From: Undibacterium sp. Jales W-56
GTDB lineage: Bacteria > Pseudomonadota > Gammaproteobacteria > Burkholderiales > Burkholderiaceae_D
Direction of reading: 5' to 3'
Assembly: GCF_025548535.1 (NCBI RefSeq)
Contig: NZ_JAJLQW010000002.1
Span: 434,001 to 498,000 of the forward strand
Length of the DNA stretch: 64,000 nt
Part shown: piece by piece, positions 1-14,042 of the stretch
How the letters are laid out: the number at the start of each line of letters is the position of its first letter
Numbering within the stretch: the first letter of the stretch is position 1
Position numbers and translations under genes: made by a program
The notes under the pieces: generated by a model
What the model was told of the DNA's origin: nothing
The model's database searches: none
The model's input: only the letters and a program-made list of their open reading frames with translations

Positions 1-2857
1 AAAGAATAGGTACATTCGCCGCATTGCTACGTACCCCGCTCACTGCACCAAGTAAGGTACTGTCAGTCACGTTGACAATAACAGGTACAGAATCAGTCAC
101 ATTGTTGGAGTTATCGGTACTACGCAGCTTGAAGCGATACGTTCCCGTAGGAGCGGCATAGGTATAGTTCAGAGTTAGTGAAGCAGTTGTGCCGGTCGCT
201 GTTTGTATTGGCGTAGCGTCATATCCGCTGCCGGTGTCTTTAAACAATTCCAGTTTAACGACTTGCTGATCGTCAGTTCCAGTTCCTTTAATCACGATAT
301 TCGTCGTGGAACCTGGAGCAATCCTGAAATTGGTGGGCGTAATATTTAATATAGCTGTCGGTGGATTACCTACGGCGGAAACGACACTCACCATCGCAGT
401 GTTTGACGTACTTACCGCATTATTATTGTCATAGGCTTTCGCGACGACGTTGTGATTCCCCAATGCCGGACTGGTCCATGTAAAGGTGTATGGCGCTTGT
501 GTCACCGTAGCCAATAAATTGCCGTCGCCGTAGAACTCCACTTTTTGCACAACACCGTCACTGTCGCTGGCATTAGCAGTGACAGCAATACCACCTGTTG
601 GTGTAGCTTGGGCCGGGGCAGAAAGGGTAATTGTCGGTGGCGCATTGACTCTACCTGTGACAGCAATACTTGTGCCTTGAACACCAAGATTATCTGTCGC
701 TACCGCCGTGACACTATAGTTGCCAATCGGTGGAGTAACCCAACTGAAGTTGTAGGGAGACGTAGTTACGACTCCTATTGATGTGCCACCGTTAAAAAAC
801 TGCACATTGGAAATTGTTGCGCTACCTGCACCAGTCGCAGTTGCACTGAAATTGATTACATCAGAAACGTTATATACGCTGCCGTTGCCTGGCCCGCTCA
901 AAGTGATTGCGGGAACATTCGAAGGTGCCGTTACCGTGACTGTGTACACCGGAGAGTCACCCTGCAAGCCTCCGATAGTGTAAGAACGCAGATAGATTTG
1001 ATGTGTACCGACCGCAAAATTTGCATAGCGTGCGTTATTTCTGGTCGTATTTACAGGTTCTCCAAACTTATAGGTTACCGTGTAAGAAATACTGTCTAGG
1101 ACCGTATTACCTTCTCTGAGTTCGACCTTATTTACAGAATCAGTGCCACTTGTGGCGTTGACGGTATAACTGATGCCAGCATTTAAGGTTCCACCAGCGC
1201 CGGCGACGCCGCCGGTAGTTGTCGCCTGAACGGCAATATAGTTAATATCCGAGGAGCCTGGTGTACCAACCGTCATACTAATTGGACTGGATGTAGTTTG
1301 CGCGCCAAGATCGTCGGTCGCTACTGCGGTAATGCTATAAACACCAACGGGGGCATTGTTCCAGATATAGCTGTATGGACTGGAAGTGGCTGTGCCGATT
1401 AAAACACCACCGTGATAAAACGCGACACTCGCAATGGTTCCATCGCTATCAGTTGCTGATGCAGTCAACAACGGACTTGCTGTTGTACTGAATACAGCGC
1501 CATTTGTCGGTGCGGTAATGCTAACGGTGGGAGGTGTGTTATTCGCAACAATCACCGTTACGGCGTTACTGAGTCCCGTCGCCAATGCATTGTCCGTTGC
1601 TCGCAATTGCAAGGTATGCGTGCCGATTGCCAAATTGACTGGTACATTGATGCTGGCAGCAGAGACAGTAGCGATAACACTGGCACCGTCCAGTAATTCT
1701 AGTTGTGTCACGCTACCATCGGCATCCGAACCCGCCCCTACTACAGTGACGCTCGCGGTGGTGCCTGTCGTTAATACATAGCGAGCATTCGTTAAAGGAG
1801 AACTTATGTTGGCGGTAGGAGCGCTATTGCCGGTAACCGTAATGTTTGCTACTGCGCTCAATCCAGTGACGGATTGATTGTCGGTTGCACGAAGACTGAT
1901 GGCGTGGGCTCCGGTACCCAAGGCAACTGAAGTATTGATGCTCAGTGTAGTTGATATGCCAGAAACAGAGGAGATAGGCGTACCATTGTCTAAGATTTCC
2001 AACAAACTGACTTGTTGATCGTCTGAACTTGTGCCAGAGATGTTGACAAGTGCTTGCCCATTTGCGGCCGCTACAAAAGTTGCGCCATTTCCAGGTGTAT
2101 TTAAGGTTGCCGATGGTGCTGCATTACTGGCCGATACCGTGATGCTGACAGCAGCACTGGTTGTAGCCGCACCTGAATTATCCGTTGCCCGAACCTGGAT
2201 ACTGTGACTACCAATCGCAAAATTCAATGCGACACTAATACTTGCTGCATTGACTGACGTGACTGGACTTCCATTATCTAAGACTTCCATCGTAACGACA
2301 GATCCATCGGAATCACTGCCGAATCCGCTTACGGTCACATTCGCAGTGGTGCCAGCTGTCGTAAATGTAGCGCCATTCCCAGGCGCTGTCAGGGTCGCCA
2401 TAGGCGCCACATTGGAAGGCCCCGTTACCGTCACAGTGTAACTAGGAGAGTCCCCTTGAAACCCTTCGTAGGTATAACCTCTGAGATAAATTACATGAGT
2501 ACCGATTCCAAGATTTGCTGAAAGTGTTCCCTGCCGACCGGTATTAACAGGATCTCCTGCTTTAAAAACCACTACATAGGGGACTGAATTTAAAACCGTA
2601 TCACCTTCCCTTAACTCGATCTTGTTGATCGAGTCCAGTCCAACCGCGTTAGCACCATAAGTAATGCCGGCGCTTAAAGTCCCCCCTATCGCAACCTGGC
2701 CTCCAGCAGTCGTTGCGCTGGAAGAATTAAAACTAGCTTGAGCGAACGCATTTTGCGAAACAAAGATGAACAGCAGACCTGCACAGAACGCAGTAATGAA
2801 CCTCCATATGGAGTCTAAATAGAAACAGGAATATTTACGAACTTGTATGGAAGCCAT
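1..2857 (-). CDS. Large exported protein with bacterial Ig-like repeats (partial, 3' end outside window)
   Basis: A single uninterrupted reading frame of 952 codons runs from an ATG at 2857 to the left edge, so the C-terminus is not visible. The first ~40 residues look like a signal peptide: basic start, hydrophobic stretch, then an AFAQA-like cleavage site. After it come repeated beta-sandwich modules of ~90 residues carrying the APxNGAxF start and the LRATDN/VATDNLG end typical of bacterial Ig-like domains (Big_7/Big_9 type). A second module type, with IELREGDTVL-like and GDSPxYTVTV motifs, occurs twice (about 2720-2410 and 1250-925). Codons for Thr, Ser, Ala, Gly and Asn dominate. It is likely a secreted or surface adhesin-like or RHS-type protein; the missing C-terminus would decide. 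AAAGAG about 8 bases upstream is a plausible ribosome binding site. Confidence 0.8.
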   Translation of the reverse strand, partial: MASIQVRKYSCFYLDSIWRFITAFCAGLLFIFVSQNAFAQASFNSSSATTAGGQVAIGGTLSAGITYGANAVGLDSINKIELREGDTVLNSVPYVVVFKAGDPVNTGRQGTLSANLGIGTHVIYLRGYTYEGFQGDSPSYTVTVTGPSNVAPMATLTAPGNGATFTTAGTTANVTVSGFGSDSDGSVVTMEVLDNGSPVTSVNAASISVALNFAIGSHSIQVRATDNSGAATTSAAVSITVSASNAAPSATLNTPGNGATFVAAANGQALVNISGTSSDDQQVSLLEILDNGTPISSVSGISTTLSINTSVALGTGAHAISLRATDNQSVTGLSAVANITVTGNSAPTANISSPLTNARYVLTTGTTASVTVVGAGSDADGSVTQLELLDGASVIATVSAASINVPVNLAIGTHTLQLRATDNALATGLSNAVTVIVANNTPPTVSITAPTNGAVFSTTASPLLTASATDSDGTIASVAFYHGGVLIGTATSSPYSYIWNNAPVGVYSITAVATDDLGAQTTSSPISMTVGTPGSSDINYIAVQATTTGGVAGAGGTLNAGISYTVNATSGTDSVNKVELREGNTVLDSISYTVTYKFGEPVNTTRNNARYANFAVGTHQIYLRSYTIGGLQGDSPVYTVTVTAPSNVPAITLSGPGNGSVYNVSDVINFSATATGAGSATISNVQFFNGGTSIGVVTTSPYNFSWVTPPIGNYSVTAVATDNLGVQGTSIAVTGRVNAPPTITLSAPAQATPTGGIAVTANASDSDGVVQKVEFYGDGNLLATVTQAPYTFTWTSPALGNHNVVAKAYDNNNAVSTSNTAMVSVVSAVGNPPTAILNITPTNFRIAPGSTTNIVIKGTGTDDQQVVKLELFKDTGSGYDATPIQTATGTTASLTLNYTYAAPTGTYRFKLRSTDNSNNVTDSVPVIVNVTDSTLLGAVSGVRSNAANVPIL

Positions 2858-3207
2858 ATGTTCTCTTTACGCGAAACGCAGCCGAAATCAGAAAAACAGA
2901 GTTCGGAACTATTTAGCAAAAAAGAGCACGGCTTTACATCCTCGTTTAAAAAATGACAAACGGAGGAGACTAGAACTTAGCGATCAGAGCCAAATCGTCC
3001 CAAATGACTCTGTGGAAATTTAGTTGGCGAGAAGTTTATATGGATAAACTAACAACTGTCAAGTTGTTAATAACTAGATGTTGTGTTTTACGGGAAATTT
3101 TATCCATCTTCGTCTATGTCATCAGAAACAGCGAGTGGAAAAACCACATCATCTTGGATATACAAACTCTTCTTAATGCCAAAAGCGATACAGGACACTT
3201 GGACCAA
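2858..3207. other. Intergenic region, no gene supported
   Basis: AT-rich 350-base spacer between the start of the Ig-repeat gene and the end of the broken relaxase gene. It holds a short inverted repeat (AACAAC/GTTGTT, about 3051-3068). The small open frame on the plus strand at 3004-3267 has no recognisable protein features. The left boundary of the mobile element may lie here or further left, but no copy of the tRNA-Ser 3' end was found. Confidence 0.5.
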
Positions 3208-4523
3208 TCAAATTTTCAATCGAGGAAGATGAATCTGCTCAGCACCACCGGTACCACTGTCGTCTGATTTTTCAACGACATAGCTTTTAATCACATTGCT
3301 GTCGTTGGCAATCTTCAGAGTCGGTTTGTAATCACGTATGACTTCAAGATCGGTTTTGCTGGGTGTGTAGCCTGTAATCAGCTCAGGTCGAAATGCGCCT
3401 GACAAAACTGCTTGCAAAAATACTTGGGACTTGAATTCATCACTCCCAGTCAGGTGAAGTCCTTGCCAGCCTTTTTCTATCGCCAACTTGATAGCCGCTT
3501 TAACTTCCTCATCCGTGCCACTCGCTACTTTGATTTGACTGCCGTAGTCATAAACTTTTCCACCGCCATTGAGATTGATTTGAAAGCATGTGCCGATATC
3601 GGTTTCAAGCTCGTCCACGCCAATGCAATGGTCTGCAAATATCTCCAACAAAATCGGAATGTAGGTTCTGGAAAAAATCGCTTCGCGGTATTTTTTATTG
3701 TTCTTTGTATCGGTGGGATTCAAAAATAAATGCCTGGATTTTTTTGTATGAACAATTTCCTCCTGGATTGGGCTGAATTCACCTTCCAATTTCAATGAAG
3801 CGATGAATTGTTTGCTTTTTTCGTTACTCATATTTTTCTCCTTGATCAGTGTGTTGAGTTCCTTTCGTTTTGAGGTGATACCTCGTTTATCCATTGCATG
3901 ACAATTGGCACCAACATGCACGGTAGGTATTTGGTCTAACCCTTGGTCTTGCAGACTGCGATGGTCAATGCGCGATTTACTAGAAGCGATTGACAATCGC
4001 CTATTGCAGTGTTTCGCCCACTGTTCGCGCCATTCATCCAATTGCTCTTTGCTATTCCAGTCACGGTTCTTTTTACCAAAGCCATCATTGGTGATATTGA
4101 TCTCACGAGTGGTCAGCAAAATATGAGCATGGGGATTTCCTTTCTTATTGTGAATAACGACATCTGCAATCATGCCTTTGCTAGTTAGCTGTGTATGTAC
4201 AAATCGTTCAAGCAAAATAATGTGCTGTGAGGGGCTCAACTCAATCGGTAAGGCGACTTCTATTTCACGGGCTAGTGCGCATCCTTTCTGGTTTCTGACT
4301 GTTCTACGGCATTCCAAAGCTGTTCACGGTCTTTCATCCATTGCGGTGTGTTGGGCGGTGTGAAGATACGGCGATAAGTGACTTCCTTTTTTCTGGTGTA
4401 GTCAAAAGTTTGACCAGTGCGGTTGTCGTGGATTTTTTCACCTGTACGATAAGCGGCGGCTGCGGTAGCACTTCTTCCAGTGGTTCGGGTAATGAGTTTT
4501 ACACTCAAGTGGTATATAGCCAT
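3208..4523 (-). pseudogene. MobQ-family (MobA/MobL) relaxase, frameshifted
   Basis: DNA relaxase that would nick oriT and stay attached through a tyrosine. The start ATG at 4523 follows AGGAG. The protein opens MAIYHLSVK and has a tyrosine at residue 25, the position of the catalytic Tyr in RSF1010 MobA. The metal-binding HxH motif (NPHAHILL) lies in the second part. The frame breaks near 4275-4280: the first part ends ...ETRKDAH-stop and the next frame resumes ALAREIEVALP. Adding one base would join them to about 438 residues. The C-terminal part (VYDYGSQIKVA ... LTGSDEFKSQ) resembles the LPD7 domain found in relaxases. It is divergent from the TraD-like gene with oriT between them. The break could be true inactivation or a sequencing error. 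Confidence 0.85.
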
Positions 4524-4561
4524 AGTTATTCTCCTGAACGTTTGGCTTTCAGCTTTGAGCA

Positions 4562-4590
4562 CACGTCGAGTAACGACGTATAAGTGCGCA
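4562..4590. other. oriT: Predicted oriT of MobQ (RSF1010/pIP501) type
   Basis: A perfect inverted repeat, ACGTCG (4563-4568) and CGACGT (4574-4579) with a 5-base loop, is followed one base later by TAAGTGCGC (4581-4589). MobQ-family origins of transfer have this layout: an inverted repeat, then TAAGTGCG with the nick just before the next C. The expected nick lies between 4588 and 4589. The site sits in the 170-base spacer between the divergent relaxase and accessory genes, the usual place. Motif and layout are seen directly; function is inferred. Confidence 0.7.
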
Positions 4591-4693
4591 TTTCGCTGTT
4601 CTGCTCTTGACGTTTCTTTTTTGTTTGTTATTTGTGTACTACAGCGTGAATTTGAAATGTCAACGCTCAAACAATAAAAACAGGAGATAAAAG

Positions 4694-4972
4694 ATGAGCA
4701 AACCGAATTTGAATAAATTACTTCAGCAGAAAGCTGAACTTGAAGCCCGCATTCAGCAAACCAGAAATCGTGAGGCTATGGAGGAAAGGAAACGAGATAC
4801 CAGGCGAAAGATTCTGGCAGGTGCTTATGTGATTAAGCTGGCAGACAATGATTTGAAAAAGCTGGGCAGGGAATTGATTGCAGCAGGAATGCTTGAGCCT
4901 AGGGACTATGCTTTATTCGGAGTGAACAATGATTCTGCTGACTTTGATTCTAATCGTTTGTCTTTGGACTGA
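4694..4972 (+). CDS. TraD-like (MobC-type) mobilization accessory protein
   Basis: Protein of 92 residues with an ATG preceded by GGAGATAAA. It opens with a charged coiled-coil (LLQQKAELEARIQ ... RDTRRKILAGAYVI) characteristic of the small TraD/MobC proteins encoded beside MobQ relaxases, where they are thought to help the relaxase at oriT. The C-terminal ~40 residues are less conserved. It is divergent from the relaxase gene and flanks the predicted oriT, supporting a mobilization role. The frame is intact although its relaxase partner is broken. Confidence 0.75.
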   Translation: MSKPNLNKLLQQKAELEARIQQTRNREAMEERKRDTRRKILAGAYVIKLADNDLKKLGRELIAAGMLEPRDYALFGVNNDSADFDSNRLSLD

Positions 4973-5298: not shown

Positions 5299-7023
5299 TC
5301 AGGCTTGCTTCTGGAAATTGACGATATTGGATTTGTCGTCATTAGATTTCAAGGTGCTGTCGTCTTCATAGTCAAAGAAAACCATCGCTGGTTCAGCCCT
5401 GCAAATGTTTTGAGCGAATCGCTTCATGCATTCAGCTCGGCTTGGTAACTGATAAAAATAGCCCTGTGTTTTACTCTTCCAGTTGGATCGCCAGTTGGGA
5501 TTATCCTGCTCAAAGGCAAATACCTTGCTCATGGCCTTACCCATTTCGTCTGCACTGGGCATAAAACGAAAGCCAAGGTTTTTGCACCATTCCAAGCAGT
5601 CAGCATAGAAAGCATTGCGATAACAACGGCTCTGGGTGTTATCAGGAGCCTTCACAATCGTTTTATTCTCAACCAAGGCTGAACCATTCAAGACTTCATA
5701 AATAAATCGCTCTGGCATTGGTAAGCTACGAATCATCAATGTCATGCGTGCCTTGGTATTTGGAAAATCTCGTGGTGTGAAACCAGAGATATCACGATTT
5801 TTAAGTGTATGAAAAATCGCTTCACGACCACCGTTTTTAATCCATTCATTGTATTGATAGAAAAACTCACCTGGCTTCGTCTTGCCCTTGTAGCGAGGGT
5901 TACCATCAATCACAAAGAAGCGACGATCTTCTTCGCCCACAGGCACACACCATTCTTCATTGGATGCCACAAAAATACGAGAATAGTTCTTGACTTGAAT
6001 CTCAGGTCGCCCTTTGTCATTAATCGAATTCACGTCTTCAGTGATCATGGCTTTCAATCGTCCTCCCGTGTGTAATCCTAAAAGTGGTAGCCAAAAATCG
6101 GTGGGATTTTTTTGTTTTAAAAAAGTCGCTGGATCAAAAATTCTGGCAAGGTCTTCTTGCGTGAATTCTTTCCAGCTATTTTTTTCTTTCACCTTTTTGG
6201 CGGTAGCTTTGGTAAATAATTTATGCCCAAGCGTAGGATAAGGTTTTTCTTCGTGCCATGCACCAGAGGTTTTTGCCAGTTCAAATAAGCCTGTGATCGC
6301 ACTGAGATACTTTTGCTGAATGGTTTTGCTGGATAAACCTTTTTGCAGAAGTTCGTCTATGAATTCGGACATGTCCTGCCTGCTAATGGCATGAATGGGA
6401 AAGTGCTGACTGTGTTTTCGGACTGCAAGCCAGTCGGAAAAAATCTGCTGATAGTTGCGGTATTCGTACAGGGTTTTGGGTGCGAGGGTGTTTTTCTTGC
6501 GGGTGGCGAACCGTTCAATCAGGTCGAGTAACGGTGTGCCTGCAACGATTCCAGATTCGGCAGCAGCTGTTTGAACAGGCTGTACGGGTGTTGAAGCCTT
6601 TTCCTCTTGTTTAGCTTTTTCCATGTTGAACTTCATGGATTGGCCCAAATCGCTATCCCAAAAATCTTTACTCGCCTGAAGCATGGCTTGAATGTCAGCA
6701 GGATTGTTGGGGTCTGCTTTGATGGTGATATTGTCGCCATTGGGGGGCGTGATTGTGATCTCAAGATTGCGCAGGGATTCTTCTAACTCTTTCTGAGTGA
6801 GGGTATGAATCCATTTGAGAATGTCTTGTTCGTCGTCCATAAAGCCAGCCATTTTGTTTTTGACCATGATAGCGGAAATGAGTAGCGATTTTTGCTTGGC
6901 GACGGTGGGATTTTTAGTTTGCAACGAGATACGACACTCCTTGCGAACGCCTTCAATAGAAAACTGGTGGCGATAGTAATACACACCGTGACGCGATTGC
7001 TGAATTTTGCATGCGAGTTTCAT
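5299..7023 (-). CDS. Chimera: tyrosine integrase N-terminal part fused in frame to DUF5906-type primase/helicase C-terminal part
   Basis: Open frame of 574 codons. Residues 1-60 match the DUF6538-like N-terminus of phage-type integrases. About 160-260 is a SAM-like core-binding domain (TLYEYRNYQQIFSDWLA). About 285-322 is the start of the catalytic domain, ending at the first active-site arginine in LGLHTGGRL. From residue 322 the sequence switches to the C-terminal half of DUF5906/phage primase-helicase proteins: LKAMITEDV, NYSRIFVASNEEWCVPVG, EEDRRFFVID, then a PERFIYEVLNG-like tail. The integrase HxxR and Tyr nucleophile and the helicase Walker A are all absent, so neither activity should survive. 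The best reading is an in-frame deletion between an integrase gene and a co-oriented primase gene of one mobile element; the junction is at about 6055-6066. The gene starts 95 bases from the tRNA-Ser 3' end, the usual place for an integrase. Confidence 0.75.
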   Translation of the reverse strand: MKLACKIQQSRHGVYYYRHQFSIEGVRKECRISLQTKNPTVAKQKSLLISAIMVKNKMAGFMDDEQDILKWIHTLTQKELEESLRNLEITITPPNGDNITIKADPNNPADIQAMLQASKDFWDSDLGQSMKFNMEKAKQEEKASTPVQPVQTAAAESGIVAGTPLLDLIERFATRKKNTLAPKTLYEYRNYQQIFSDWLAVRKHSQHFPIHAISRQDMSEFIDELLQKGLSSKTIQQKYLSAITGLFELAKTSGAWHEEKPYPTLGHKLFTKATAKKVKEKNSWKEFTQEDLARIFDPATFLKQKNPTDFWLPLLGLHTGGRLKAMITEDVNSINDKGRPEIQVKNYSRIFVASNEEWCVPVGEEDRRFFVIDGNPRYKGKTKPGEFFYQYNEWIKNGGREAIFHTLKNRDISGFTPRDFPNTKARMTLMIRSLPMPERFIYEVLNGSALVENKTIVKAPDNTQSRCYRNAFYADCLEWCKNLGFRFMPSADEMGKAMSKVFAFEQDNPNWRSNWKSKTQGYFYQLPSRAECMKRFAQNICRAEPAMVFFDYEDDSTLKSNDDKSNIVNFQKQA

Positions 7024-7082
7024 AGTAGCCTCTAAAATGAAGAGGTACCCCTATGAGTGCCACCAAGTGCGAAAACAAAATA

Positions 7083-7108
7083 AAAAAGCCCTTGATTTTC
7101 AAGGGCTT
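7083..7108 (-). terminator. Intrinsic terminator after tRNA-Ser
   Basis: Hairpin with a 10-base stem (AAGCCCTTGA paired with TCAAGGGCTT). Read on the minus strand it is followed by a run of T. It sits 10 bases beyond the tRNA 3' end, separating the tRNA from the integrase chimera. Confidence 0.75.
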
Positions 7109-7117
7109 ACTTATCTT

Positions 7118-7207
7118 TGGCGGAGAGGGGGGGATTCGAACCCCCGATACGTTTGCACGTACGCCTGATTTCGAGTCAGGTACATTCAACCACTCTGCCA
7201 CCTCTCC
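7118..7207 (-). tRNA. tRNA-Ser (anticodon CGA)
   Basis: Ninety-base cloverleaf with acceptor stem GGAGAGG/CCTCTCC, anticodon stem CCTGA/TCAGG with loop CTCGAAA (anticodon CGA), a long variable arm typical of tRNA-Ser, T-loop GGTTCGAATCC, discriminator G and an encoded CCA. It reads UCG serine codons. It is the likely integration target of the neighbouring element, because the integrase fragment lies directly beyond its 3' end and points away from it. Confidence 0.95.
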
Positions 7208-7286
7208 TGTTTTGCTTTGATGATTAAAAGCAAGCCTGCGATTATAGCAAAGAAACTCTGGATTTGATAGTTTGCATGACCATTTC

Positions 7287-8618
7287 CTAGAGCTTGGCTT
7301 CCATTGCGATGGTGCAGTCACTGCGCGGCAGAGATGCCTTTGTGAGCGCTGGGTTCATTTCCAGCATTGCGGTTTGGGCTTGATTCAGGTCTTTGCTGAA
7401 TTCATTCAGGTAGCGGGAACGTTCCTGGCTTTGCCATTCGGCGTCGGAGAATGTTTTTGTGCTGTAGGTTTTTGAGGTGTATGCCGGACCGACGATACGC
7501 GACATCAGGGCGCGGTCGGGATCGGTATTTTCTTTGAGCAGATACGCGTCGACATCCCTGAGTGTTAGAGGAAAAGCCGGTTCCTGATCGCGCATCAATT
7601 TACCGAATACGCTGAGCTTTATTTCGGTTGCGCCCTGCGGCAATACGTCGTTGAAAGTCGCCAGGGCATACGGCTTGCCTTTGGCATCATCAATCCTGCC
7701 GCTGACTACGTAGCGCCCTGCCTGGCGAATATCGGCTTTCATATAAAAATTCAGGGATCCTTGCTCGACCGCTTCGCGTATCGATCCGGCCCAGGTGGCG
7801 GGAACTTCAGGTGAATAGATCACATCGAAAAACACGATGCCGGCGCGATCCCCGACGTTGTATTTCACTTCCAGCCGTATCGTGCCATTGAATTGGGCGA
7901 AGCCTGTCATGGCCGGCGACAAGCTACCAGTGTAGGTATTGTCACCGGGGATCAGGTCGCCGTTGCTCCCATCGTCACCGAAACTCACCGGGACTTGCGG
8001 CGCTTCTCTGCTGCCCTGAAAAGTCAGGCCGCGGGCGACTGCGCGCGTGACGAATATCGGTAAAGCTTTTCCATCCTCATCGCTGGCCTTGAGCGAGAAA
8101 GTGACGCTCTCACGACTGGCTAAAAAGATATGGGATTGCGAGGTCTGGATCTGCACATGTTTATCTGCCTGTCCGTTCTCTTTGCGCATCGCATGTTTTT
8201 CTTCTACTGGCTGATTGGGGTAAACCTGATCGGGGTGCTCGGCGATCGGCCTGGATTCTTGCGGATACTGGCTGCCCTTGCGATAGCTGCACAGCGTGTG
8301 ATCTGCCAACTCGACTTGTTTGGCCAATTCGGCCAGACGCTGTTCGCGCTCGGCTGCTGACATCAGCACGTCTGAGTTCCCCTGTCCTTGCGGCATTTTT
8401 AAAAAAGTCGAATTCACTGATTTTGGCGCGGCGCTGGCAAGGCCGGATTCCAGTCCCGCAGAAAACCACCAGGCGCCGACAACGATCATTAATACCGATG
8501 CAATCAATGCGGGGCGCCAATGCCGCACCAGCCAGTGACGCCTGCCACTGACTGGTTCAAAAACGGCTCCACGCTTAGGTTTAGCAACCTGCTTGGAGCC
8601 GTCTTTTTTGGAGCGCAT
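7287..8618 (-). CDS. Membrane-anchored protein with choice-of-anchor X-like domain
   Basis: Protein of 443 residues. A basic cytoplasmic start is followed by one transmembrane segment (about 34-58, ALIASVLMIVVGAWWF), so the rest should be periplasmic. About 75-105 is an Ala/Glu-rich helix. The centre (about 165-290) contains VTFSLKASDEDGKALPI and SFGDDGSNGDLIPGDNTYTG, typical of choice-of-anchor X beta-sandwich domains. The C-terminal ~60 residues are helical. It follows the secreted hydrolase-like gene on the same strand by 36 bases, so both are probably one transcript. The layout recalls lipase/foldase pairs, but no foldase motif is recognised and that role is conjecture. Confidence 0.6.
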   Translation of the reverse strand: MRSKKDGSKQVAKPKRGAVFEPVSGRRHWLVRHWRPALIASVLMIVVGAWWFSAGLESGLASAAPKSVNSTFLKMPQGQGNSDVLMSAAEREQRLAELAKQVELADHTLCSYRKGSQYPQESRPIAEHPDQVYPNQPVEEKHAMRKENGQADKHVQIQTSQSHIFLASRESVTFSLKASDEDGKALPIFVTRAVARGLTFQGSREAPQVPVSFGDDGSNGDLIPGDNTYTGSLSPAMTGFAQFNGTIRLEVKYNVGDRAGIVFFDVIYSPEVPATWAGSIREAVEQGSLNFYMKADIRQAGRYVVSGRIDDAKGKPYALATFNDVLPQGATEIKLSVFGKLMRDQEPAFPLTLRDVDAYLLKENTDPDRALMSRIVGPAYTSKTYSTKTFSDAEWQSQERSRYLNEFSKDLNQAQTAMLEMNPALTKASLPRSDCTIAMEAKL

Positions 8619-11854: not shown

Positions 11855-12166
11855 CTACTTGTTTCGCTGCCCGTCATCCTTCTGGCCTTGCTGTCCGTCA
11901 TCCTTTTGGCCTCGCTGCCCATCGTCCTTTTGGCCTTGCTGCCCGTCATCCTTTTGGCCTCTTTGTCCGTCATCTTTCTGGCCTTGCGGCCCATCATTCT
12001 TTTGGTCTCTTTGTCCGTCGTCCTTCTGGCTATTACCCGCAGAAACAGTGAACTGTTTATCTGCCTTCCGCTGATCCGACAAGATCTGCTGTGCGTCAAC
12101 AAAGGGCGCGTAGATTGGCATACCTAACAGGAGGACGATGCCAGTGACGAGAGTTTTCAAATGCAT
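11855..12166 (-). CDS. Small exported protein with eight-residue tandem repeats
   Basis: Protein of 103 residues. A signal peptide (LVTGIVLLLGMPIYAPFVDA) is followed by ~20 unremarkable residues, then seven copies of an 8-residue unit of type QKDDGQRG/QKDDGQQG to the C-terminus. The repeat is hydrophilic, strongly charged, lacks hydrophobic residues and is surely disordered. ATG 12166 follows an AGGAG-like site. Function is unknown; the tail might bind metal ions or cell wall. It lies within the patchwork between rarA remnants. Confidence 0.6.
   Translation of the reverse strand: MHLKTLVTGIVLLLGMPIYAPFVDAQQILSDQRKADKQFTVSAGNSQKDDGQRDQKNDGPQGQKDDGQRGQKDDGQQGQKDDGQRGQKDDGQQGQKDDGQRNK
11861..12028. 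repeat. 24-bp tandem repeat, seven copies
   Basis: Seven 24-base units encode the QKDDGQ(R/Q)(G/D/N) repeats of the small exported protein. Units 3-7 alternate between R and Q forms, suggesting recent duplication of a 48-base pair of units. Copy number is likely variable between strains. Confidence 0.85.
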
Positions 12167-12862: not shown

Positions 12863-13752
12863 TTATGCAGCCAGTTTTTCCTGATTTTGGTCACGCTTCC
12901 AGTGATTGAGATACTGCACCGGCGATTGATAGCCGAGCGTTGAATGCTGACGGATTCGATTATAAAAGACTTCAATATATTCGAAGCTGGCTGCCTTCAT
13001 TTCAGCATGGGTAGCGTAACGCACGCCATGGTATCGCTCGTTCTTGAAACTGTTAAACCAGCTCTCGGTCGGCGCATTGTCCCAGCAGTTCCCTTTGCGA
13101 CTCATCGAGCACGTCATGCCATATTTCTTGAGATTGTCCTGAAAGGCCTGGCTGGCGTATTGACTGCCGCGGTCAGAATGATGCATAAGGCCGGCGTCCG
13201 GTCGCCGGCGAAACCAGGCCATCGTCAAAGCATCCGTCACAATATCGCTCGTCATGCGCGGCTTGAGCGACCAGCCGACCACCTCCCGATTGAACAGATC
13301 CAGAACAATTGCAAGATATAACCAACCCTCGGTGGTCCACAGGTAGGTGATATCCGACGTCCAGACCTGGTTGGGGGCGGTCGGCGTAAAATTCCGATTC
13401 AACAGATTTTCCGCCACCGGCAAACCATGTTTGGAGTCCGTGGTGACCTTATAGCGCCGTTTATGACGGGCACGGATACCATTTCTCGCATGAGACGCTC
13501 GACACGCTCCTTGCCAACGGTGAAGCCTCGCTGCCGCAGTTCGCGCACGATGCGCGGACTGCCGTAAGCACCCTTGAGTTCGGCATGAATGGCGCGTATC
13601 AGCGCAAGCATCTGCGCATCCGTCAACCGTTTGCGCTCAGGTGTGCCGCCACGCTTCCACGCCCGATAGCCGCTGATGCTGACGTTGAGGACGACGCACA
13701 TTTCGGTCAACGCATAGCTCTTGATTTGACCGTCCATCCAGGCGTACTTCAC
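12863..13752 (-). pseudogene. IS3-family transposase OrfB, one-base frameshift
   Basis: DDE transposase. The first part (13752 down to about 13484) carries the HTH_21-like region (LTDAQMLALIRAIHAELKGA). The second part carries the rve catalytic core with DDE motifs: TSDITYL, HHSDRGSQY and NCWDNAPTESWF. The frame breaks at about 13481-13484, where CGAGAAATGG lacks one A. Restoring it gives MRENGIRARHKRRYKV and a continuous protein of about 296 residues. Translation starts at GTG 13752, overlapping the orfA stop; programmed frameshifting would normally fuse OrfA and OrfB. The copy should be inactive unless the lost base is a sequencing error. Confidence 0.85.
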
Positions 13753-14042
13753 AGAACATCCTTCGCGAAGTACGCCGCTGCTTTTTTTATGATTTCATTC
13801 TCCCGCTTCAGGCGGGCGTTTTCCGCACGCAGTCTGGAGAGTTCCATCGCCTCTGGCGTCACCACTTTACTGCTGGCGCCTTTGAGTTTTCCTTCGGCGG
13901 CCGCCTTGATCCAGTTTCGCAGCGTCTGGTCGCCCAGCCCCAGCTCCTTGACCACGACCGCAACCGATTCACCATCCTGGACGCGTTTGACCGCCAGTTC
14001 CTTGAACTCGGTTGTGTACGCTTGTTTCGGTATTCTCTTCAT
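13749..14042 (-). CDS. IS3-family transposase OrfA
   Basis: Protein of 97 residues. A helix-turn-helix (YTTEFKELAVKRVQDGES ... LGDQTLRNWIKA) is followed by a leucine-zipper-like coiled coil (LSRLRAENARLKRENEIIKKA), the standard layout of HTH_Tnp_1 OrfA proteins that bind the IS ends. The frame is intact and ends inside the orfB start. Confidence 0.9.
   Translation of the reverse strand: MKRIPKQAYTTEFKELAVKRVQDGESVAVVVKELGLGDQTLRNWIKAAAEGKLKGASSKVVTPEAMELSRLRAENARLKRENEIIKKAAAYFAKDVL

Follow-up and report, generated by a model that had tools for sequence, protein, structure and literature searches.

Beside a tRNA-Ser gene of Undibacterium sp. Jales W-56 lies an open reading frame that begins as a tyrosine integrase and ends as a DUF5906-type helicase, and the question it raises is whether this protein is retained for a new role or is the by-product of a young deletion. 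The window, as the term is used here, is the whole stretch of 64,000 nucleotides that was analysed. A first-pass annotation had placed the chimera at its present coordinates, had described the frame as open over its entire length and had offered both of these explanations. The position and the open frame are confirmed by translation, and, with a probability that we put at roughly 0.85, the chimera is a young, non-functional by-product of a recent deletion in a decaying mobilizable element. If so, the locus would be a clean example of how one deletion can leave an open chimeric frame that automatic annotation could call either an integrase or a primase.

Architecture of the chimera and its parental genes

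The chimera is real and is not a misread open reading frame. Its 574 codons contain no stop, and domain searches give an integrase before residue 321/322 and a DUF5906-type protein after it. The integrase family phrog_1 matches residues 161-323 (E 1.4e-12) and the DNA primase family phrog_1156 matches residues 321-532 (E 1.9e-17). The SAM-like core-binding domain is present (PF02899, 27.4 bits against a cut-off of 22.3), whereas Pfam gives no match to Phage_integrase (PF00589), a domain that is matched by the complete integrase of a second Undibacterium genome, G187. The integrase part ends inside TGGR, which we take to be box I of tyrosine integrases, the last residue of this motif being the box-I arginine; after this residue, Arg322, helicase sequence stands in place of the integrase catalytic domain. 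The match to DUF5906 (31.4 against a cut-off of 27.6) covers residues 321-368 and only positions 67-114 of the 114 in the profile, whereas the G187 helicase matches all of them (1-114). GTQGIGKGS in the G187 helicase is presumably the P-loop (Walker A); it is located in the deleted part of the helicase and is absent from the translation of the chimera. The earlier label of “primase/helicase” survives in its second half only: in the G187 protein of 545 amino acids Pfam finds DUF5906 and a sub-threshold VapE-like match and no primase (AEP) domain, which makes “helicase” the safer name.

Table 1. Positions of the chimera and its surroundings in the window, and of the parental genes in G187
Feature	Position	Strand or placement	Basis
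Chimeric ORF of 574 aa, its N-terminal part from an integrase and its C-terminal part from a DUF5906 helicase	5299..7023	-	Translation, domain and homology searches
Integrase part (residues 1-321), comprising the N-terminal region and, at 178-251, the SAM-like core-binding domain	6061..7023	-	
Helicase part, 254 codons, Gly321 to native C terminus	5302..6063	-	Homology
Join GGACGA, found in the G187 integrase and helicase genes alike (on the helicase side 6064 fits too)	6058..6063	-	DNA comparison
tRNA-Ser(CGA), with the element abutting its 3' end	7118..7207	-	
Terminator-like hairpin separating the tRNA from the chimeric ORF	7086..7108	-	
Gene for a small TraD-like protein (Pfam match below threshold), 86% identity with its G276 counterpart	4694..4972	+	
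MobA/MobL relaxase gene, broken by a 1-bp deletion near 4275	3208..4670	-	Comparison with G276
Distal limit of DNA similarity to other elements (in G276, and the remnant on contig C1 of the same genome)	3193..3207	-	
G187 integrase	L035 7047-8636	Adjoins tRNA-Ser	
G187 helicase	L035 10957-12591	Same strand as integrase	

The likely layout before the break can be seen in G187, where a complete integrase beside tRNA-Ser is followed on the same strand of one contig, 2.3 kb downstream, by a complete helicase, with three small open reading frames of 235, 167 and 108 amino acids between them, the first on the opposite strand. The integrases of G187 and G368 (71-72% identity), and more distantly those of G292, G285, G174, G701 and G467, resemble the N-terminal 321 residues of the chimera, and those of G187, G368, G285, G174 and G701 likewise lie beside tRNA-Ser, but the relatives run on through the catalytic part (tested as a Pfam match in G187) that the chimera lacks. 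Its C-terminal 254 residues are shared with the DUF5906 helicases of G187, G276, U. flavidum (G218) and U. fentianense (G227), at 88-92% identity; compared with the G187 helicase, residues 1-291 are missing. The elements of U. flavidum and U. fentianense have the helicase and a relaxase in common but are sited near tRNA-Arg, and the 19-20 kb fetched for them contained no such integrase.

The join, the probable deletion and the element around them

DNA similarity to the G187 integrase extends to window position 6058 and that to the helicase starts at 6064, so that the switch falls, as had been claimed, at a Gly-Arg pair (residues 321-322). The first-pass annotation had further suggested that a short DNA match seeded the deletion. 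GGACGA is indeed present in both G187 genes, a match of 6 bp that grows to 7 bp when the A before it, on the helicase side, is included, and the two sites are separated by 3802 bp on G187 coordinates; both the length of the repeat and the size of the deletion hold by analogy only, because G187 stands in for the actual parent and its integrase is only 71-72% identical to that of the chimera. The match itself is unremarkable. Between the G187 integrase and helicase genes there are 1084 six-mer pairs in common, of which 424 (39%) are in frame, as well as 267 seven-mer pairs, and their exact repeats reach 11 bp, so a six-mer match at the join is expected by chance and the coincidence of Gly-Arg in both families is one of many possible short repeats.

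We propose that a direct repeat of 6-7 bp in the integrase and helicase genes led to a deletion of about 3.8 kb, probably by replication slippage or end joining. This would have cost the integrase its catalytic half and the helicase its ATP-binding half, and would have taken out the small genes as well. The reading frame would have been carried on by chance, as it would be for about two in five of such repeats.

That the join is instead an assembly error is very unlikely. It is judged from the assembly alone and in comparison with an element that is not its true parent, but it lies well inside a contig of 713 kb, and the missing integrase and helicase halves are absent elsewhere from the assembly, which is listed as 100% complete in 20 contigs. 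An overlap of 6 bp is, moreover, far too short for usual assemblers to join reads. The frameshift in the nearby relaxase gene could be a sequencing error, and this would have no bearing on the join.

A gap of 94 bp separates the start of the chimeric reading frame from the tRNA-Ser(CGA) gene at its 3' end, and a hairpin sequence similar to the one between them is visible in eight related loci. On the far side of the chimera lie the TraD-like gene and the relaxase, which is of the MobQ type as judged by its intact relative in G276; its two aligned pieces are 85% and 65% identical to this protein of 449 amino acids, the lower value including the out-of-frame tail. In both G187 and G276 cargo sits between the helicase and the TraD-like gene, and in the window there is none, the two regions of similarity being about 70 bp apart. 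Measured against the definition of an integrative mobilizable element, the locus has an integrase gene at a tRNA gene, and neither its integrase nor its relaxase is intact. An integrative mobilizable element would once have occupied tRNA-Ser(CGA). Judging from G187, it probably began with the integrase, followed by three small genes, the DUF5906 helicase, cargo, the TraD-like gene and the relaxase. As it stands, the element would be unable to excise, to replicate or to be mobilized by its own proteins.

No convincing second copy of the tRNA 3' end, as expected of an att repeat, was found near 3193. The sole strong copy in the stretch searched lies 31 kb away (C12:409886-409952 of the same genome, G000), beside another remnant. 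We considered a 31-kb island between the two copies as a single element and rejected it, as by eye the stretch carries pilus-type and Rhs/YD-repeat genes. A protein of 3302 amino acids looks Rhs/YD-repeat-like by eye, and just downstream its C-terminal part recurs as a second near-copy bearing a different tip (L081:4949-14857 and 1271-3310, minus strand; the window below about 2857). A small open reading frame at 11855-12166 (minus strand) consists mostly of KDDGQxGQ-like repeats, and 12863-14042 (minus strand) resembles by eye an IS3-like insertion sequence with two open reading frames.

The genome contains two further remnants of the same integrase family, with 82 and 94 residues matched. 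Of these integrase N-terminal remnants, one (C1:453098-453385) adjoins tRNA-Ser(GGA) and the other (C12:409595-409952) adjoins a tRNA-end-like sequence without a whole tRNA.

Two known kinds of element invite comparison. PICMI phage satellites, as described in PMC10803314, combine an integrase with a DUF5906-type replication gene, as here, but its relaxase and TraD-like gene set the present element apart; the PICMI model given there makes AlpA and Fis mandatory. Grounded prophages, as described in PMC6379469, are fixed in place by loss of recombinase function and are prone to deletions, much like the element in the window, although the grounding set out there concerns prophages and not relaxase-bearing elements such as this one.

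The same junction in other genomes, plasmids and phages

The same fusion was sought elsewhere, in genome collections that hold one genome per species and among viral contigs, plasmids and phages. Searched with the whole protein, 80 of 392 genomes of the family gave matches (at most three candidates being scored per genome in most), and among the candidates scored only that of the own genome reached deep into both halves. None of the other integrase-type matches went more than 28 residues beyond residue 321, and none of the helicase-type matches started before residue 314. No second example of the junction was found in these 392 genomes or in 350 genomes of the class; genome contigs gave two loci, both helicase only, and in viral contigs neither the whole protein nor residues 1-160 had a relative. 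Among 72,556 plasmid records there were five matches, none covering 80% of the chimera, and among 50,697 phage records there were 176, with none covering 80% among the best 20. Residues 1-160 alone found matches in 4 of 43 genomes of the genus and 6 of 399 of the order, a search that lists integrase starts and does not show the helicase half. Nor did we find a report of this fusion among the papers listed on integrase-primase fusions, on DUF5906 with integrases, on fusions by short-repeat deletion or on remnants of truncated integrases.

One group of phage matches required closer attention. Among the best 20 of the 176, tblastn matches in Vibrio phages of the VP2 group span residues 185-484 (to 510 in JSF9), and the genes concerned are annotated “integrase” or “DNA primase”, as might be expected if the chimera belonged to a known fused family. 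In a control with 20 shuffled integrase halves the overhang never reached residue 185, the furthest extending to 278; some overhang was, however, seen in 11 of the 20. The stretch before the join adds only 0.8 bits, the helicase half alone scoring 61.6 and the whole chimera 62.4. Residues 1-322 of the integrase alone gave a best E of 0.20 against the VP2 group and the G187 integrase a best E of 1.3, whereas the G187 helicase scored 162 bits. The phage record's own note describes the gene as similar to a “putative integrase” of another phage. The proposed overlap with the integrase part was rejected on the 0.8 bits and the non-significant matches of both integrases; the shuffle control supports this incompletely (278 versus 185). 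The matches that span both halves are best read as alignment overhang. Membership of a known fused family is accordingly extremely unlikely, and the first-pass annotation's own concern that the architecture might be that of a single well-known family is not borne out, no plasmid or phage match among those listed covering 80% of the chimera. The VP2-group primase/helicase, annotated “integrase” in several records (for example NC_005879.1 24673-26961, L057), shows no significant similarity to integrases in pairwise comparison.

Age, function and the fate of related integrases

The helicase part of the chimera carries the marks of constraint, with a dN/dS of 0.071-0.088 against its four relatives, which among themselves range from 0.046 to 0.103. 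At codons of this part where the four other sequences agree, the window has nine synonymous and two nonsynonymous changes, the same count giving 15/3 for G187, 15/2 for G276, 5/2 for G227 and 5/0 for G218. Any statement about selection is limited to this half, pairwise dS of the integrase half being saturated in several comparisons. The broken relaxase is constrained to the same extent (0.061-0.087, with 0.069-0.090 among its relatives). Selection as proof of function of the chimera was therefore rejected: with a frameshifted gene showing an equally low dN/dS, the low ratio and the open frame neither show nor exclude a retained function. The low dN/dS can be a relic from before the breaks, which fits youth. 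Young age also suffices for the open frame, the chance of no nonsense mutation over 574 neutral codons being 0.45 at 1% divergence and 0.09 at 3%. Together, the layout in G187, the 6-bp repeat where the two genes meet, the failure to find the missing halves in the genome and a relaxase that is frameshifted yet still constrained support the very young deletion inside an integrated element that had been put forward.

The other proposal of the first-pass annotation, retention for a new role, has found no positive evidence. In its most concrete form, the DNA-binding part of the integrase and the C-terminal part of the helicase would serve together as a binding protein, for which the chimera is kept, blocking the att site or disturbing related elements, whether these are resident or newly arriving. 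The core-binding region is intact, AGAGG is kept before the ATG of the long open frame, and the two other remnants in the same genome may mark repeated invasion; expression of the chimera is possible, and so is continued binding to DNA. Against this, no sigma-70-like promoter was found in 6950-7300, and an AlphaFold2 model built on nine sequences (mean pLDDT 40, pTM 0.25) is too poor for the folding of either part to be read from it. With the junction seen in no other genome searched with the whole protein and the relaxase as constrained as the chimera, we regard such a role as very improbable.

A further argument for it comes from another genus of the family, where G246 has an independent in-frame integrase-helicase fusion of 271 amino acids (L045:8547-9362, plus strand). 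Like that of the window, it joins an integrase of the same family beside tRNA-Ser to the C terminus of a helicase, and downstream of it lie a TraD-like gene and a broken relaxase. It differs in its breakpoints, the integrase being kept only to about residue 131-137 (around residue 150 of its own reading frame), and in the type of helicase, which matches phrog_864 DNA primase (E 1.9e-5) and, below the cut-offs of Pfam, Pox_D5 and RFX. Both parents of this fusion lie about 4.5 kb apart in G368 (L039 9789-10152 and 14653-15005). A candidate-defence ATPase follows the G246 fusion: between it and the broken relaxase, as cargo of the element, is a protein of 746 amino acids that matches the candidate-defence family PDC-S06 (L045:9545-11785, plus strand; E 1.3e-287).

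From these two independent cases one might propose that elements of this family repeatedly become, through in-frame deletion, stationary remnants that still make the DNA-binding part of an integrase joined to the C terminus of a replication helicase. By sitting on att and replication sites, such a hybrid would protect the tRNA-Ser site, or the host, against relatives of the element. We consider this very improbable. If the in-frame fraction of 424 in 1084 holds for both, two in-frame joins out of two would occur by chance with a probability of about 0.15, which makes the pair suggestive only. Were the parallel with G246 to exceed chance, element-blocking proteins would have one of their origins in broken integrases.

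A census covered the window and 17 related loci that were fetched, leaving out weaker partial matches (G197, G082, G225, G059, G722 and others). Seven loci have an integrase that includes the catalytic part, three are without one (G276, G227 and G218), and eight are broken, namely the window, G246, G142, G032, G265, G594 and the two remnants in G000. Only three of these eight (the window, G246 and G142) run in frame into a recognisable partner, that of G142 being sub-threshold, with the frame examined for six of the eight (G265 and G594 were left out), and no enrichment of in-frame fusions is seen among the eight broken loci of the fetched set. The broken integrases of G032, of G000:C1 and of G000:C12 at 409.6 kb end in short tails. 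In G142 (L044:5015-5707, minus strand), residues 1-121 of the integrase pass in frame into an OmpA-like tail, a sub-threshold Pfam match.
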